Assembly: GCF_000421485.1 (NCBI RefSeq)
Contig: NZ_ATXC01000001.1
Span: forward strand, 434,001-498,000
Direction of reading: 5' to 3'
Source of the DNA: Desulfurobacterium sp. TC5-1
GTDB taxonomy: Bacteria > Aquificota > Aquificia > Desulfurobacteriales > Desulfurobacteriaceae
DNA length: 64,000 nt
A program made the position numbers and the translations under genes. Shown one piece after another: positions 30,114 to 41,460 of this stretch; the first letter of the stretch is position 1; every line of letters begins with the position of its first letter. Under the pieces are notes generated by a model that worked only from the letters and a program-made list of their open reading frames with translations, was not told the DNA's origin and did not search any database.

Positions 30114-30413
30114 ATGAAGACGCCGGTTAGAATTTTTAAGTGCCTTGACTGTGGTAAAGAGTTTGAGGCGCCATTTGGAAAACCAAGATGGATGCTTAGC
30201 TGTCCTTCCTGCGGTAGCGAAAATATTGTGAGAATTGGTACGAAAACCGAGGAAGGAAAAGAGGAAAGATTTGAAGATGTGCCACCAGGATGGTGGGGCA
30301 GGAGAGGTGCAGGTGCCGGCTGGGGATTCAGGTTTAGAGGCGGCTGGCGCGGTGGATTTGGAAGAGGCAGAGGAAGAGGCTGGGGAAGAGGTCCTGGCTG
30401 GTGCAGATGGTAG
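30114..30413 (+). CDS. Zinc-ribbon protein with Gly/Arg/Trp-rich tail
   Basis: A 99-residue basic protein. The N-terminal half is an FmdB-like zinc ribbon with two CxxC pairs (FKCLDCGKEF at 8-17 and LSCPSCGSENI near 29). From about residue 58 the chain becomes low-complexity: rich in G, R and W with repeated RGxG and GRG units, resembling RGG-type nucleic-acid-binding tails. AGGAGGTG precedes the ATG. A terminator hairpin overlaps its stop codon, so it is monocistronic. Function is unknown; RNA binding is a guess from composition. Confidence 0.75.
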   Translation: MKTPVRIFKCLDCGKEFEAPFGKPRWMLSCPSCGSENIVRIGTKTEEGKEERFEDVPPGWWGRRGAGAGWGFRFRGGWRGGFGRGRGRGWGRGPGWCRW

Positions 30414-30514: not shown

Positions 30515-32659
30515 ATGAAAAGTGATGATAGATTGAGGAAATTTTTCCGTGCCTTTTTTAATAGTTATGCCGGCATCTTTTTCATTTCTGAACCTGTGTT
30601 TGGAGCGGTTCTCTTTCTGGTTTCTATAATTAATTTCAATATGGGATTTGCCGGATTTTTGTGTGTTCTTTCAGCCTATCTGTTTGCCAGACTTCTTGGT
30701 CTTAAAGAAACATTTTTGGGTCTTGATTTTTACATTTACAATCCTCTCCTTGTTGGTCTTGCAATAGGTTATCTGTTTAAGTTAGGTCCCCTTACGCTTA
30801 TATTTTTAATAAGTCTTGGTATCCTTACATTTTTGATGACATATTCTCTATCTTCTATTTTTTCTTACTATTTTAAACTGCCTGTTTTAAGTATTCCATT
30901 TGTTATAGGGAGCTTTATCGTTTACCTTGCTTCTTTACGCTACTCCAACCTTTTCGTTACAAGTTTATATCCCCACTATCCTGAATGGGATTTTCATCTT
31001 CCGCTGTTTCTAAAAGGTTTTTTTGACTCTATGGGGACGATTCTTTTTTCTCCTTATACACTTGCAGGTATAGTGATTTTTTTAGCTCTCTTTGTTTACT
31101 CGCGGATACTTTCATTTCTGGCTTTTATAGGTTACGTCGGGGCTACTTTTGTGACAGCTCTTATGACCGGTTCTCTTGAAAAGGCATTTACGGATATTTC
31201 AGCGTTCAACTACATACTCATAGCTATGGCTGTGGGTGGTGTTTTTTTAATTCCCTCGCCTAAAAGTTACTTTATGGCTTTGATTGCTTCTCTTGTAGCT
31301 GTTCCTGTTGTTGAGTCAACGAAAACGTTCTGGCAGCATTTTGGTATTCCTGTTTTTGCCCTTCCTTTTAACACGGTTGTCCTTTTGATGGTTTATTCTC
31401 TTGGTCTCGTAGGATACGAGAGTCTAACAAGATTTTATCGAGGAACTCCTGAGAAAACACTTGATTACTTTCTCACCGTTGTTAAACGCTTTCCATTCTG
31501 GGGAAGGGAAATTTCTCTTCCTTTTACCGGTGAGTGGACTGTCTGGCAGTCCTTTCACGGTAAGTGGACCCACAAGGGTGCGTGGCAGTATGCGGTTGAT
31601 TTTGTAATTACAGATGAAGAAGGAAAAACTTTTTCAGGTGATGGAATTTTACTTTCCGATTATTATGCTTTTCAGAAGCCTGTTCTTTCTCCCGTGAGGG
31701 GAAGAGTCGTGAAAACAGTTACCAACCTTCCTGATAATCCGCCGGGAAAAGCTGATAGAGAGAATAATCTGGGTAATTTTGTTCAGATATTAGATGAAAG
31801 GGGATTTTACGTTGTTATAGGTCATATGAAAAAAGACTCTATAAAGGTTAAACCCGGTGATTGGGTTGAAAAGGGGACTGTTTTAGGACAGTGCGGAAAT
31901 TCCGGCTATTCTCCTCAACCTCACATCCATATTCACGTTCAGCTTTTACCGGATATAGGTGCTCCTACTGTTCCATTTAGTTTTGCTCCTTTTATTAAGG
32001 ATGAAAAAATATTTATTGACAACGGAGTTCCGAAAGAGAATGATAGGGTTAAACCTGTTTACCCGGATAAAGGATTATATGAGAAATTAAATATGCTTAT
32101 AGATATGGTTTTCATGTTTGAGATTTTAGAAAATGGTGAGAAAAAGGGCAATTTTCAGGCAGTTGTTAAAATGGCACCTGATGGTACCTTTTATTTAACA
32201 GATGGGATAGCCAGGCTCTACTTCGGAATTAATAACGGTACTTTCTATTGTTACAGTTTCGAAGGCAGCAATAAATCCTATTTAAAGTATATTTTTCTGT
32301 CTTCGCCCAAAATTCCTCTCCACCTTGAAAAAGAGTTAGTGTGGAAGGATTATCTGCCTATAGAGTTGGTTGAAAAAAGGTTTATTAAAGCTGTTTTTAG
32401 ATTTTTGGCGTCTTTCAATCATAACCTTTATGAAGTTAAGGGGATATATAAAGCTGTTTCGCCTTTTTCTTTCAAGGGAAAGATTGAATTTCTCAATTTT
32501 CAGGTTGATACGGAAGCAACTATACACGATGTAGTAGGTTTTGATAGGATTTACGTTGGAATGAAAAAGAGGGAAGTTGTTTTAAGGAGAGTGGATGATG
32601 AAAAGATTTTTATTAACGGTTTTAACGGCATTGACGGGGATACTGTTAGTATTGGCTGA
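30515..32659 (+). CDS. Urea-transporter-like membrane domain fused to M23 (LytM) peptidase
   Basis: A 714-residue fusion. Residues about 15-305 form a urea-transporter (UT/SLC14) domain with around ten helices; the two internal repeats carry FYIYNPLLVGLAIG (near 72) and FNYILIAMAVGG (near 231), matching the UT pore motifs. Residues about 335-490 are an M23 metallopeptidase domain with candidate zinc ligands H353, D362 and the HIH pair at 470-472, plus H437 in VIGHM. The last 200 residues are a beta-rich domain of unknown kind. No urease genes are present. The weak ribosome site is noted; the start is the first ATG after TATAAT. The last 62 nt overlap the next gene. Confidence 0.8.
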   Translation: MKSDDRLRKFFRAFFNSYAGIFFISEPVFGAVLFLVSIINFNMGFAGFLCVLSAYLFARLLGLKETFLGLDFYIYNPLLVGLAIGYLFKLGPLTLIFLISLGILTFLMTYSLSSIFSYYFKLPVLSIPFVIGSFIVYLASLRYSNLFVTSLYPHYPEWDFHLPLFLKGFFDSMGTILFSPYTLAGIVIFLALFVYSRILSFLAFIGYVGATFVTALMTGSLEKAFTDISAFNYILIAMAVGGVFLIPSPKSYFMALIASLVAVPVVESTKTFWQHFGIPVFALPFNTVVLLMVYSLGLVGYESLTRFYRGTPEKTLDYFLTVVKRFPFWGREISLPFTGEWTVWQSFHGKWTHKGAWQYAVDFVITDEEGKTFSGDGILLSDYYAFQKPVLSPVRGRVVKTVTNLPDNPPGKADRENNLGNFVQILDERGFYVVIGHMKKDSIKVKPGDWVEKGTVLGQCGNSGYSPQPHIHIHVQLLPDIGAPTVPFSFAPFIKDEKIFIDNGVPKENDRVKPVYPDKGLYEKLNMLIDMVFMFEILENGEKKGNFQAVVKMAPDGTFYLTDGIARLYFGINNGTFYCYSFEGSNKSYLKYIFLSSPKIPLHLEKELVWKDYLPIELVEKRFIKAVFRFLASFNHNLYEVKGIYKAVSPFSFKGKIEFLNFQVDTEATIHDVVGFDRIYVGMKKREVVLRRVDDEKIFINGFNGIDGDTVSIG

Positions 32660-33500
32660 TGCCCGGGCGGACTATTCGGCCATCTATGGAACTTATATTG
32701 ATTATAATGGTGGGAGTAAAATAGGGGGACCTTCCATAACAGGTTATTACAGTACGGGTAACTTAACAAAATCGTACTCTTTTGGTTTATCTTTCACATC
32801 CATAGAATATTCGGATAACTATACATCAACTTTAGCGTTTAAAAGATATGGTATTTCGAATGTGGGGATACGTTTTCTAAATCAGATAGATGTAACAGCA
32901 GTCTATTCGGTTACAAATGAGCTGCTGAAAAACCATACTTTTTCTTTTGGTGTTCATTACATAGCTACTGATGATAATTTGACAAATAACGGTTTGATTT
33001 TTTATTTCGATGGAACATATTTTAAACCTTATAACTGGAATGCAGGCATTGAAACGGCTTTTTCTTATTATCCTGAAAGTCTAAATCTGCATGTTTTGCA
33101 GGTTGCACCCCACTTGGGTAAGTATTTTTATGCTTCAAAAGCCACTTTTTATGCGGGGACGAAACTTTACTATATTACTTTAAATAAATCTGATGAACTT
33201 GGTCTTAGTGGTAGCAATTTTCTCTCTGCAGAAGTTTTCCTTCACTACTATAAAGGGAAGTTTGATGCTGGAATTTCAGCCTGGAAGGGTGAGCAAGTTT
33301 TTGCAGTCAAAAACGGGGGATTTGTTGTTTATAACCTTGCAGAGAAATATAAACAGGGGATATCTGTTGAAGCCGGCTATTACTTTGCCAGGAATTACAG
33401 GTTAGGCGCGACGATTTCTTTGAATAAGTTTGATGATCTTGAAACGGGTAATGATGTAACCCAGACTGCGGTTACGATTTCACTTGGGTATAAATGGTAA
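32598..33500 (+). CDS. Exported beta-rich protein, probable outer-membrane barrel
   Basis: A 300-residue protein with a signal peptide (hydrophobic segment 5-22, cleavage near ADARA-D) and then alternating hydrophobic/polar strands rich in Y, F, G and N, ending in ITISLGYKW, an aromatic C-terminus typical of outer-membrane beta-barrels. I recognise no specific family. AAGGAGA (32584-32590) is best spaced for ATG 32598 rather than the adjacent in-frame ATG at 32595. It overlaps the end of the fusion gene by 62 nt, which suggests that the two are coupled and act together at the envelope. Confidence 0.65.
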   Translation: MKRFLLTVLTALTGILLVLADARADYSAIYGTYIDYNGGSKIGGPSITGYYSTGNLTKSYSFGLSFTSIEYSDNYTSTLAFKRYGISNVGIRFLNQIDVTAVYSVTNELLKNHTFSFGVHYIATDDNLTNNGLIFYFDGTYFKPYNWNAGIETAFSYYPESLNLHVLQVAPHLGKYFYASKATFYAGTKLYYITLNKSDELGLSGSNFLSAEVFLHYYKGKFDAGISAWKGEQVFAVKNGGFVVYNLAEKYKQGISVEAGYYFARNYRLGATISLNKFDDLETGNDVTQTAVTISLGYKW

Positions 33501-37037: not shown

Positions 37038-38207
37038 ATGAAACGGAAAGTTTCGAGAAACGTTATTCTTTTAGGCTTGGTTAGTCTGCTTAACGATATG
37101 AGTAGTGAAATGATAGCACCTATAATTCCCGGTTATCTTATAGATGTCTTAAAGCTGAGAGAAATAACAAGTGGAGTTGTTGTCGGCCTTATAGAGAGTC
37201 TTAGTTCGATATTGAAGGTTCTTTTTGGCTATTTGAGTGATAAGTTTCAGAATAGAAAACTTTTTGTTGGAATCGGATACAGTATTTCTACATTTTCAAA
37301 AGCCATGCTCGGATTTACTAAAAGTTGGTTTGATTTTCTGGTTTTTAAAATTTTAGACAGGGTTGGGAAGGGAATAAGAACGGCACCTCGTGATGCGTTG
37401 ATTGCAGAATCTACCGGTAGTAACGGTAGTGGTAAAGCTTTTGGTTTTCATCGTATGATGGATACCTTTGGTGCGGTACTTGGCCCTCTGATTGCCCTCG
37501 GTATTCTTGCATTTCTGAAGACTGGAGGTGCCTCTTCTTACAGAACAGTTTTCTTCCTCTCTGCCGTTCCGGGTATTTTTGCAGTTATGATTATTGTTCT
37601 TTTCGTAAAAGATACGGGAAGAAAAGTAAAGAAAAAAATTGAGAGACTTGTTTCTGTTGAAAAACGGGAAATAAAATACTTTCTCGCAGTTGTGGCCGTG
37701 GGTGCTTTAGGAAGATACAGTTACGCTTTCGTTCTGTGGAAAGCCAGGAGTCTCGGGTATTCTACAATAGATAACCTGCTTTTTTACGCCCTTTTTAACC
37801 TTGTGTATGCTATTTTTTCTTATCCAGCAGGTGTTCTTGCTGACATTTTCGGGAAGAAAAAGTTAATTCTGACAGGTTTTCTCATTGGAGCGGGAGCTTC
37901 TGTTACTTTTTATGCGGCTAAAAGTATTGTTGGACTTGTTGTTGCTTTTATACTCTATGGGATTTATGTTGCAATAGACGACACGGTTCCCGTTTCTTTC
38001 ATGGCAGATGTTGCCGGTGAAAAGAAAAAGGGAACGGTTATAGGTACCTATCATACTGTTTTTGGTGTTTTTGTCCTTCCCGCTTCTGTAATTGCCGGCT
38101 TTCTGTGGCAGAATTATACTATAGATGTAGCTTTCCTGTTTGCAGCATGCATGAGTTTCCTTGCTTTTTTGATGTTACTTGGTTTTAGAACCACTTCTTG
38201 TAGTTAA
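37038..38207 (+). CDS. MFS transporter
   Basis: A 389-residue major facilitator with about 12 helices. The N-terminal LLNDMSSEMIAPIIPGYLIDVL and the loop with RTAPRDALIAES (near 114) place it in the group of MFS proteins with the SDMSSEMVYP-like start, annotated as drug or sugar-efflux-like; substrate unknown. AGGAGAGGG precedes the start, 11 bp after the Omp85 gene. Its 3' end overlaps the convergent pelB by 23 nt, so no terminator separates them. Confidence 0.82.
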   Translation: MKRKVSRNVILLGLVSLLNDMSSEMIAPIIPGYLIDVLKLREITSGVVVGLIESLSSILKVLFGYLSDKFQNRKLFVGIGYSISTFSKAMLGFTKSWFDFLVFKILDRVGKGIRTAPRDALIAESTGSNGSGKAFGFHRMMDTFGAVLGPLIALGILAFLKTGGASSYRTVFFLSAVPGIFAVMIIVLFVKDTGRKVKKKIERLVSVEKREIKYFLAVVAVGALGRYSYAFVLWKARSLGYSTIDNLLFYALFNLVYAIFSYPAGVLADIFGKKKLILTGFLIGAGASVTFYAAKSIVGLVVAFILYGIYVAIDDTVPVSFMADVAGEKKKGTVIGTYHTVFGVFVLPASVIAGFLWQNYTIDVAFLFAACMSFLAFLMLLGFRTTSCS

Positions 38208-41200
38208 TTTCAAATTTAAAGATTCTGTCACCGGTTGCCTGTGGATTTATAGAGTAGCTGAATCCCAGATTCAGGTTATCTTTCCCGACGAGCATGCCTC
38301 CTATACCGCCTCCTGTTGAGACTCCCCATCCGTAAACGGTATTGTAGCCCGTACTTATATTAAAGAACGGCCGCCACACTCTTACATAATTGTATTTGTT
38401 TTCGTAGCCGAACTCAAAACCAATTCCCACTTCCATGGAGCTTTCGGGGAGGGCATCTGCTGGCGGATAGTAAGTCATTTCATCAACAGCAGTGTTTGTA
38501 TGGTTTTTTCCGTTGTAGAATGTTTTTAGTACATATGTTTTAAAAGTAAAATCTGGATAGCCTGCCCTTAATTTGTAAAGTATTTCTTCGTAGAGATTTG
38601 TGCCGCTTCCCAGATTTTTTCTGTCAGAAGAAAAATACTTGTTCCACTCTATGTTTGATGTTAAAGTTAAAGAGTTCATGACGGGATAAGATATGTAAAT
38701 GCCGGCAGTGCTTTTATATCCTGCAGACATTAGATATACAGATTCATCAGCGGTTGTCGCTGATGAACCTTCTACTTTTACCTCAGTTCTGTGATTTAAA
38801 AGTGTTCTGTAAGTTAAAGTCAATCCGACATTTGTGCTTTTGTTTTTAATTATGTTAAAGCTTAATTTTGCACTCCCTGTTGAAAACAATTTTTCAACGT
38901 AAAGGTCTGTAGCATATCTGTCAAATAACTTTCTGTATTCGCTTTTGTTTAGAAACTTTGTGTTTGACTGATGAATGCCTGCATATACTCCGTTTCCTTT
39001 TTTTCCATATTTGAAGGAAAAGTCTGTTCTGATATCGTAAAGGCCTGAGCGGTCTTCCAGTGTTTCCGATATTACCCCGTAATTTCGGTATTGTGTATTT
39101 AAATCTCTAAGTTGTTTATATAGTTCTTCATCGTACGGATTATGTGTTAGTTTAATAAAAGCGGTGTTGAGAGCTTTTCCCGGTTTTCCTTCAAGAGTTA
39201 AAGCGGTTACTCTATCCCTTATGGGCAGTACGGGGCCGTAGTTTGAAGTTAACTTCATCATCTTGTACCGGTCGTCTTCGTAAAGTGCCAGGTTTAACTG
39301 AAGCCACTTTGAAACATCCTCTCTGTGTCTTGTTACGAGATAATCCACTTTTTCCGTTTGTCCTGATTTTATTAAGAATGAATAGTAAAGTTCTTTATAC
39401 ACTTTTGGCGGGAGGAACTTTTGTGATGCTTGAAGTTCTCTTTCAAACTTCCAGAGTGGTTCGTAGTACATGGCAACGCGCAGATAAGAAACCAGTTCAT
39501 CCGGATTCTTAAACATTCCTTGTTTTTCTATGATCTTTTTCATTTTTTTGAAAAGGTTGAATCTTATAGCTCTGGCTTCTTCGGGCTTGCCGTATAGTTC
39601 AAGAATATCAGCTTTTGTTAAAAGCATGGAAAAGTCTGAGGGTGGAATCTTTACCGACTTTATAAGTTTAAGTGCTTCTTTACCGTTCTGAAGGTACAGG
39701 TAAGCTGCTATGAACGGATAGGGATTTAGAACGGCATACTTTTTATAATTAAAAAGGGCTTTTTCCAGATCTTTTATATCCTGGTTATCCATTAAAAAGT
39801 AAATGTACTGTTCTATGAGCTCTGTGTTTTTTCGGTTTTTAAGCTCTATCTCCATTAATGATTTTGCTTTTTTTACTTTTCCAATATTTGATAAGGCGAG
39901 AACATAAACAGATAAAGGATAATTTTCTGATAACAATCTTCTTTTTTCCGCTTCCGGAAGGGAATCGATCGTGCTTATAATAAGTTTCCATCTTTTCAGT
40001 TTACTTGCCAGGCTCAGAAAATCTATCATAAAGTCCTCTATTCCTGTTGCTTTGTAGCCTTCAAGTGCATATTTCATGGCTTTTTCAGGATTTACTGAAG
40101 CGTAAAAGAGAATTATCCGTGAATAATCAAAGTCTTTCCCCTTCCCTGTATTAACCAGAGTTTCTGACGCTCTTGCGGCGGTTTCATAGTCTCCCAGTGC
40201 CCATGCAAGGTTTCCCATTAACTGCCAGTAGTCTGTAAGGCTTTCAGGGACGGAGTCGGCATTGTTTTTTAAAACTTGCAGGGCTTTGTCAAACTTCCTG
40301 TCCGAAATAAAAATTTTTGCTTCTATCAATGCATCGTTATACGTATATTTCTTCAGAATTTTAAGTTTTTCAAGTTCTTTTAAAGCTTTTTGTTTCTCTC
40401 CGTAAAACCAGTAGATAAAAGCCGCTTCTCTTATTAGTTGAGGATTGTTGCCGTAAACTTTCTCTGCAAGTTCTATTCCTTTATCAATGTTCCCCATTTT
40501 TCTGAAAAAGGCAATTAAATCTTTATAGAACAAAACTTTGTGTCCTTTTTTGATTTCTTCCTCTATTAACTTTTGTGCGGTTTCTTCATCTCCCAGCACC
40601 AGAGCTAAAGAATATGTTCTGTGGAATACTTTTTCTTCATTGAAACTGAAATATAATTTCTTGTAGGCCTGCAGCGCTACCGGCTGGTTATCAAGCCAGA
40701 GGGAAATTTTGGCAAGCCACTCCCACCAGAATTTGTGTTCTGGAAAAAGAACAGTTCCTCTTCTGGCAACCTCAAAAGCCTTTTTCAGGTTGTTGTTGCC
40801 TAAAAATATACGGAGAGAAGTTTTCAGGATTTCTTCTCTGTTATTGAGATTTGCAGTAACTGTTTTATACAACTTCTTCTCTATTTTTCTCGGTGATGTT
40901 GGAGCGAAAAAGAAATTTTTAATGCCCAGTAGGGAAAGTTTTTTGGAAAACTTTTTCAGGTCTTTAATGGATTTAGATAGCCCTATTCTTACAGTATAAA
41001 GTCCTCTGTCAGTTCTATATATAAACGCGTCTCTTTTTATACTTTCAGGAAGGTTGTTGAGATATCTGGCAGCCTTTTTATACGACTGGAAGGTTCCCAG
41101 CTGGACAGAATAGTACAGTGTATTTTTCTTTTTTTCTCCGGTAAAACCTTTCACTTTATTGGCATCTGTTGGAACTATAAAAGCACCGGAAATTCCGAAT

Positions 41201-41460
41201 TTTTCAAGAAGGTTCTTTTCCTGCTTTAGTTTTCTTACCGTTTCAGCCACATCAAATCTAACGGTTACCTTTCCTGAATCTGTTATATAAATAAATGACT
41301 TTTTTTTAAGGCTTGTCGGGAGATTTTCAAGAAATTTTTCCGCCTGAGAGCGGCTTCTGAAAGTTCCGAGTTGCCATGAATAGGCTATGCTTCCGGCAAA
41401 AGCCACTGAAGGAAGCAAGAGACAACATGTGTACAGCCAGATTTCCTTTATTCTTCTCAC
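38185..41460 (-). CDS. pelB: PelB-like outer-membrane exporter: SPOR-SPOR-TPR-beta-barrel
   Basis: Probable export protein of the Pel polysaccharide, 1091 residues. Signal peptide (1-22, VAFAG); two SPOR-like repeats of about 75 residues at 26-100 and 116-190, each beginning with a (Q)LGTF motif; a long TPR/helical solenoid from about 200 to 790; then a C-terminal beta-barrel (about 810-1091) ending in the aromatic NYKKWF. P. aeruginosa PelB (about 1190 residues) has one inner-membrane anchor, TPRs and a barrel; here the anchor is on a separate upstream gene and SPOR repeats are added. GTG start overlapping the upstream stop by 4 nt. Assignment rests on the architecture and the complete pel context. 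Confidence 0.85.
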   Translation of the reverse strand: MRRIKEIWLYTCCLLLPSVAFAGSIAYSWQLGTFRSRSQAEKFLENLPTSLKKKSFIYITDSGKVTVRFDVAETVRKLKQEKNLLEKFGISGAFIVPTDANKVKGFTGEKKKNTLYYSVQLGTFQSYKKAARYLNNLPESIKRDAFIYRTDRGLYTVRIGLSKSIKDLKKFSKKLSLLGIKNFFFAPTSPRKIEKKLYKTVTANLNNREEILKTSLRIFLGNNNLKKAFEVARRGTVLFPEHKFWWEWLAKISLWLDNQPVALQAYKKLYFSFNEEKVFHRTYSLALVLGDEETAQKLIEEEIKKGHKVLFYKDLIAFFRKMGNIDKGIELAEKVYGNNPQLIREAAFIYWFYGEKQKALKELEKLKILKKYTYNDALIEAKIFISDRKFDKALQVLKNNADSVPESLTDYWQLMGNLAWALGDYETAARASETLVNTGKGKDFDYSRIILFYASVNPEKAMKYALEGYKATGIEDFMIDFLSLASKLKRWKLIISTIDSLPEAEKRRLLSENYPLSVYVLALSNIGKVKKAKSLMEIELKNRKNTELIEQYIYFLMDNQDIKDLEKALFNYKKYAVLNPYPFIAAYLYLQNGKEALKLIKSVKIPPSDFSMLLTKADILELYGKPEEARAIRFNLFKKMKKIIEKQGMFKNPDELVSYLRVAMYYEPLWKFERELQASQKFLPPKVYKELYYSFLIKSGQTEKVDYLVTRHREDVSKWLQLNLALYEDDRYKMMKLTSNYGPVLPIRDRVTALTLEGKPGKALNTAFIKLTHNPYDEELYKQLRDLNTQYRNYGVISETLEDRSGLYDIRTDFSFKYGKKGNGVYAGIHQSNTKFLNKSEYRKLFDRYATDLYVEKLFSTGSAKLSFNIIKNKSTNVGLTLTYRTLLNHRTEVKVEGSSATTADESVYLMSAGYKSTAGIYISYPVMNSLTLTSNIEWNKYFSSDRKNLGSGTNLYEEILYKLRAGYPDFTFKTYVLKTFYNGKNHTNTAVDEMTYYPPADALPESSMEVGIGFEFGYENKYNYVRVWRPFFNISTGYNTVYGWGVSTGGGIGGMLVGKDNLNLGFSYSINPQATGDRIFKFEINYKKWF
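40891..41385 (-). repeat. Tandem SPOR-like repeats within PelB
   Basis: Two 75-residue units 90 residues apart (41161-41385 and 40891-41115). Shared pattern: Y-S-x-Q-LGTF at the start, NLP-x-S-(I/L)K in the middle, (F)IY-x-T-D-x-G-x-x-TVR, then F-x-(V/A)PT at the end. They are diverged at residue level but align without gaps. Confidence 0.75.

Follow-up and report, generated by a model that had tools for sequence, protein, structure and literature searches.

The window, a 64,000-nucleotide stretch of the 1.65-Mb genome of Desulfurobacterium sp. TC5-1, holds a gene in which a urea-transporter (UT) domain is fused to an M23 peptidase (UT::M23), and this gene belongs to a recurrent set of six. 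We propose, with a probability of roughly 0.45, that the six genes form a small undescribed pathway in which an amino-acid-derived compound is made and moved across the envelope. Three unusual features could be tested in this system: a urea-channel fold whose substrate is not urea, an RRE leader borne by an enzyme and an M23 domain that may act inside the cell. Features and positions are collected in Table 1.

Table 1. The UT::M23 fusion gene in the window and its partners in the same genome
Feature	Position	Strand	Remarks
UT::M23 fusion gene	30515..32659	+	714 aa, 714 codons, one ORF
UT domain, residues 12-294	30548..31396	+	Pfam PF03253; site tables
Basic linker past last UT helix, residues 301-331, RFYRGTP...	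31415..31507	+	
M23 metallopeptidase domain, about residues 335-480	31517..31954	+	Pfam PF01551
C-terminal region without Pfam match	31955..32656	+	Missing from loci L100 and L101
Probable outer-membrane barrel partner gene	32595..33500	+	Signal-peptide-like start and C-terminal W, by eye
UT::M23 and barrel in own genome	C1:464.5-467.5 kb		
TPR gene in own genome	C1 615.6 kb		61% identity to L068 copy
PqqD, ATP-grasp and DEC genes in own genome	C1 659.7-662.3 kb		

Architecture and conservation of the fusion

Both domains of the fusion protein are recognised in a single frame: PF03253 (UT) scores 203 bits over residues 12-294 (cut-off 25) and PF01551 (Peptidase_M23) 47.6 bits over residues 387-476 (cut-off 28.7), and past about residue 480 no Pfam family matched. 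A sequence-only reading of this DNA had placed a UT channel, an M23 peptidase and a further C-terminal domain on one chain, and that architecture stands. As a whole its observations were partly confirmed: the fusion, the candidate zinc ligands and the absence of urease held up, the UT pore did not prove intact and the periplasmic side became doubtful. Its interpretation likewise found partial support: a substrate other than urea is favoured and a non-catalytic M23 anchor disfavoured. A single-sequence AlphaFold prediction of the fusion was uninformative (pLDDT 36.3, pTM 0.22).

UT and M23 share one frame at all 21 aligned loci of the phylum, and M23 is attached to UT at 13 of the 14 UT loci fetched from outside it (one of which scores below the UT cut-off), the exception, L101, being UT alone. 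An unbroken UT and M23 match was found in 22 of 61 genomes, comprising the source genome and relatives, at 50-100% identity; the remaining matches in these genomes cover the M23 portion only, apart from one broken copy (G010). UT exceeds its cut-off in 43 of the 136 genomes of the phylum, and in 39 of the 43 the frame is 669 aa or longer; the others are G129 (498), G102 (429), G130 (partial, 141) and G010. Because one frame recurs across genomes and aligned loci, the fusion is, as judged from sequence, real and old, and the survey of relatives that had been suggested as a check found it kept.

With the fusion as query, genome contigs yielded one M23-only gene, viral contigs gave no match, and plasmids gave M23-only and UT-only matches, no record spanning 80% of the query. 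In the open-licence literature, covered as titles and the starts of abstracts, neither UT::M23 nor the set of partner genes turned up as a subject; the architecture may be on record in Pfam/InterPro. In the broken copy (G010:C107:1402-3456) the UT match lies in three pieces and two frames, with seven stops on read-through, and the adjoining decarboxylase gene carries one stop; this fusion gene is either a pseudogene or the product of sequencing errors.

A conserved gene set

Comparison of 20 neighbourhoods with the window gave the recurrent order PqqD, ATP-grasp, PLP decarboxylase (DEC), UT::M23, outer-membrane barrel and TPR, the first three usually upstream of the fusion and the last two usually downstream of it in the same phylum. 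PqqD, ATP-grasp, DEC and UT lie on the same strand and in this order at 14 of 21 own-phylum loci and at 9 of the 14 outside loci, namely L092-L095 and L097-L101. Among the outside loci without the complete four, L091, L102 and L103 run to contig edges, bases beside the gene are unavailable in one more, and in the L096 genome the ATP-grasp gene is on a separate contig. The DEC frame often runs 4-13 bases into that of UT when the first start codon is taken. In the L068 locus the PqqD copy matches PF05402 (66.5 bits), the ATP-grasp copy a CPSase-like ATP-grasp family, the DEC copy Orn_Arg_deC_N (117.3 bits) and the TPR copy a TPR family, and the barrel copy has no family.

Of the 21 own-phylum loci read, 19 have a barrel gene and 15 a TPR gene. 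Outside the phylum BLAST recognises a barrel at 3 of 14 loci (L091, L099 and L102) and a TPR partner occurs at 8 of 14, the L101 copy lying 4 kb off on the opposite strand; neither was recognised in L093, L095, L096, L097, L100 or L103. Because these partners are recognised less often elsewhere, the outer (barrel/TPR) part of our model rests mainly on the phylum itself. Barrel sequences end in F or W in 21 of 22 rows, and the window's barrel gene, read from its first start codon, shares 65 bp with the fusion gene.

In the window's own genus the set is split yet retained. The PqqD of the source genome is 72% identical to the L068 copy and adjoins ATP-grasp and DEC; PqqD, ATP-grasp, DEC and TPR escaped the sequence-only reading because in this genome they lie outside the window. 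The TPR gene is present in 10 of 11 genomes picked mainly for split sets.

Co-occurrence across genomes

We surveyed 391 genomes, 136 of the phylum and 255 outside it, counting ATP-grasp members at 370 bits or more and leaving out matches of 117-127 bits (G022, G130, G161 and G184). Both UT and ATP-grasp occur in 51 genomes, UT only in 5, ATP-grasp only in 2 and neither in 333 (p 1.5e-55), so that 51 of the 58 genomes with either have both, including unlinked cases such as the source genome. Within the phylum the corresponding counts are 40, 3, 2 and 91. Fisher values ignore relatedness, and it is safer to rely on the 255 outside genomes, which represent many families: here the counts are 11, 2, 0 and 242 (p 1.3e-17), UT exceeding its cut-off in 13 genomes and accompanying the ATP-grasp member in 11 of the 11 that have one. 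UT and DEC are similarly distributed over the 136 genomes (both 41, UT only 2, DEC only 1, neither 92). That ATP-grasp is missing from G010 says little, since only 47 bases separate the start of its DEC from the end of the contig.

A proposed pathway

Sequence establishes the components, how far they are conserved, their order and joint occurrence, and the altered urea filter; for the product class, the direction of flow, the contact between RRE and leader, and the side and substrate of M23 we infer the following scheme. UT::M23 would be the inner-membrane component of a PqqD/ATP-grasp/DEC/UT::M23 system, joined by the barrel and TPR proteins in most own-phylum loci. The ATP-grasp enzyme would link an amino acid with a carboxylic acid, the PqqD-type RRE would hold DEC through DEC's own N-terminal YxxP leader, and DEC would strip the carboxylate from the amino acid. 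The small product would then cross the UT-derived channel and after it the TPR/barrel pair, outward more likely than inward. M23 would act at the membrane, its target being a peptide or conjugate and its side more likely the cytosolic one. A broader claim would be that this is new natural-product machinery reaching beyond one phylum, in which an RRE recruits an enzyme by an enzyme-fused leader and a urea-channel fold with a cytosolic M23 serves as product exporter, a channel analogue of those RiPP ABC exporters that contain a peptidase; we hold this extension to be speculative, with some chance of being right.

Side and activity of the M23 domain

H353, D362, H437, H470 and H472, which by M23 motifs we take to be the zinc ligands and catalytic histidines, are invariant in 32 of 32 M23-bearing rows. 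The candidate zinc ligands noted earlier are thus intact, and the idea that M23 is an inactive envelope anchor is disfavoured by their invariance and by a charge pattern that leans cytosolic. Canonical UTs have both termini in the cytosol. Over the predicted loops of 33 system rows, which are related to one another and whose helix ends were set by hand, K/R per residue comes to 0.155 for inner loops and 0.059 for outer ones, and to 0.176 for the linker that leads to M23; a single protein may show equal raw counts on both sides (5 in and 5 out for the protein in the window), and the densities alone differ. On the canonical topology and these densities a cytosolic M23 is tentatively favoured, and the periplasmic location that had been assigned to it looks doubtful. 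A cytosolic M23 would be unusual.

The linker resembles the R-Y-R junction of M23 proteins encoded on Thermus and haloarchaeal plasmids, with which the fusion shares this type of basic junction, LPF.G.WTV, YA.DF and HxH at 34-42% identity. The plasmid proteins have a short membrane segment, whereas the fusion has the UT channel and an extra C-terminal region.

These observations bear on the alternative that survives best. In it M23 works in the periplasm as a murein endopeptidase, opening or trimming the wall so that the barrel/TPR pair can be accommodated; a small amine conjugate destined for the wall comes from the cytosolic enzymes and reaches the periplasm through UT. The invariant ligands would suit such an enzyme, as would the presence of lysostaphin among the solved-structure M23 matches of the fusion and the barrel and TPR genes that adjoin it in most own-phylum loci. 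However, canonical UT topology and the K/R densities put M23 inside, and haloarchaea, which are not known to have murein, are among the sources of plasmid M23 proteins whose basic junction is similar. We regard this arrangement as unlikely.

A decarboxylase with its own leader

In the proposed pathway the leader belongs to the decarboxylase. YxxP stands at the N-terminus of all 26 full-length DECs, typically as YEKPxI.....G..NKFG, and two reports describe YxxPx[L/V/I/F/A] as the recognition motif of discrete lasso-type RREs (PMC13381572, PMC12710340). A separate YxxP precursor was sought at 36 loci, where besides DEC only two chance ORFs were found: one at L079, 42 aa long and carrying the motif close to its end, and one at L082 of 116 aa, which overlaps DEC in a different frame. 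An exact-codon scan for YEKPxI in 20 genomes returned 31 matches, and 19 of the 30 examined are DEC N-termini; of the other 11, 8 lie inside longer frames and 3 in frames of 10-27 aa, and none is a convincing precursor of this form. The system thus has in common with lasso-type RiPP pathways a stand-alone PqqD-type protein and a YxxPx[I/L]-like N-terminal motif, but here the leader sits on an enzyme and no convincing precursor peptide was found.

The closest profile to DEC is that of FigC, an N-citrylornithine decarboxylase (319.6 bits, against 238.6 for DAPDC, 153.5 for BtrK and 88 for ODC), and FigC is also its best-scoring solved relative. In DEC rows with letters at the site, the PLP lysine, GGG, E305, C373 and Y402 are always kept, and a Met stands next to the Cys in 27 of 27, a Cys-Met pair common to FigC. 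The FigC paper gives this pair as C354-M355, describes the FigC clade as non-polyamine and likely engaged in specialised metabolism, and reports R387 and N389 as citrate contacts that its authors proposed from docking (PMC7857480). In DEC, R387 is replaced by Q406 and N389 by M, L or T. The L068 DEC scores 230.7 bits with NF041039, the FslC model for N-citrylornithine decarboxylase, below its cut-off of 500. The DEC substrate is, on these residues and scores, probably not citrylornithine but an amino acid that is acylated or bound to a carrier. BtrJ is the ligase in the BtrJ/BtrK-type pathway. With FigC/FslC and BtrJ/BtrK the system has in common an alanine-racemase-fold decarboxylase akin to enzymes of acylated or carrier-bound amino acids and an adjoining ligase gene; it differs in that its six conserved genes include neither a NIS synthetase nor an acyl carrier, and in the changed positions of the proposed citrate contacts.

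The same comparison weighs on the possibility that the product is a citrate-type metallophore like rhizoferrin, which the system would make and export or take up again. The nearness of DEC to FigC/FslC and the shared Cys-Met pair point that way, but the low FslC score, the loss of the proposed citrate contacts and a conserved set with an ATP-grasp enzyme in place of a NIS synthetase make a metallophore quite improbable.

Between the ATP-grasp and DEC genes, L071, L073 and L075 contain a Cys-rich ORF of 43-44 aa with a signal-peptide-like start, L074 a similar Cys-rich ORF by eye, and L072 a CxxCH mini-cytochrome-like ORF. A viral contig, IMGVR_UViG_3300047160_011268, carries adjacent ATP-grasp (34%) and decarboxylase (47%) homologues (L109:3665-5922); no PqqD or UT homologue was found in the 12.6 kb covered and its decarboxylase frame is without a YEKP leader.

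The altered urea filter

The packing motifs of UT are present in the window protein (YN/FN, L79, P128-F129 and P284-F285), and the system UT rows for the most part retain the asparagines, L84 and the P-F motifs. At the urea-contact positions, Q24, T130, E187 and T294 of dvUT correspond to G20, S126, T175 and A282. Five plasmid-borne UTs served as controls for these sites, four annotated beside urease genes and the fifth from a record that annotates no gene there, and all five have Q, T, Q and T at sites 24, 130, 187 and 294. In the 33 system rows, which exclude the contig-edge fragments L102 and L103, site 187 is A, T, S, G or L and never E or Q; site 24 is G, A, E, D, T, V or K, with Q in L101 only; site 130 is S or A, with T in L100 only; and T persists at site 294 in 11. 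The urea-contact residues are altered in every UT::M23 row. As dvUT filter sites PMC4357013 names L84, T130, L247, T294 and E187. The earlier statement that both UT pore motifs are intact therefore holds for the packing motifs and fails at the urea-contact positions: by these aligned residues the UT fold is retained and the urea site lost. The protein resembles the UT urea channels (dvUT, UT-A/B and Yut; PF03253, TIGR03441) in its fold-level match and packing motifs, whereas replaced urea-contact residues, the fused M23, the lack of urease and biosynthetic partner genes set it apart.

Could the protein still be a urea channel, exporting urea from an agmatinase/arginase-type ureohydrolase or importing it, with M23 as a passenger? 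The UT fold and PF03253 match allow it, and an arginase/agmatinase-family gene (PF00491) is present in the source genome (G000:C1:1238557-1239306, minus strand) and in every one of the 18 genomes of its family that have UT. Across the phylum UT and PF00491 are associated (both 18, UT only 25, PF00491 only 9, neither 84; p 3.7e-5), an effect of that one family; PF00491 is absent from 25 of 43 UT genomes and UT from 9 of 27 PF00491 genomes. Against this reading stand also the altered contacts and the score of 99.7 bits with TIGR03441, an NCBIfam equivalog whose cut-off is 274.6. A genome search found no urease in the source genome, which extends the earlier remark that none is nearby; urease alpha was detected in 3 of the 136 phylum genomes, all 3 lacking UT, and among the 14 outside genomes with a UT match none has urease over cut-off, one holding a 22.4-bit fragment. 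A word search of a paper on genome evolution in Thermovibrio ammonificans found neither "urea" nor "urease" in its main text (PMC5441870). We consider a urea channel very improbable, and the fusion gene is probably not about urea. The earlier suggestion that the UT domain conducts something else gains support from the filter changes, the absence of urease and the gene context. Since 51 of the 56 sampled UT genomes over cut-off have the system ATP-grasp and none has urease over cut-off, it is unsafe to read urea use from a UT annotation. Finally, an assembly error or accidental union of two genes as the origin of UT::M23, a reading with next to no probability, is refuted by the repetition of the fusion across loci inside and outside the phylum.

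Neighbouring genes

Directly upstream of the fusion (30114-30413, plus strand) lies a gene for a small zinc-ribbon protein with a Gly/Arg-rich tail, and it recurs in both other loci of the genus that were read (L066 and L067). Preceding PqqD in the source genome (L104:7357-9230) are a DUF4405 membrane protein homologue and a protein containing HMREEEKLARDVY, likewise in several loci of the family. Elsewhere in the window, 38185-41460 (minus strand) encodes a SPOR-TPR protein of 1091 aa that ends in a PelB-type barrel (PelB C-terminal, PF24604, 99.7 bits) and likely serves Pel-type exopolysaccharide export.
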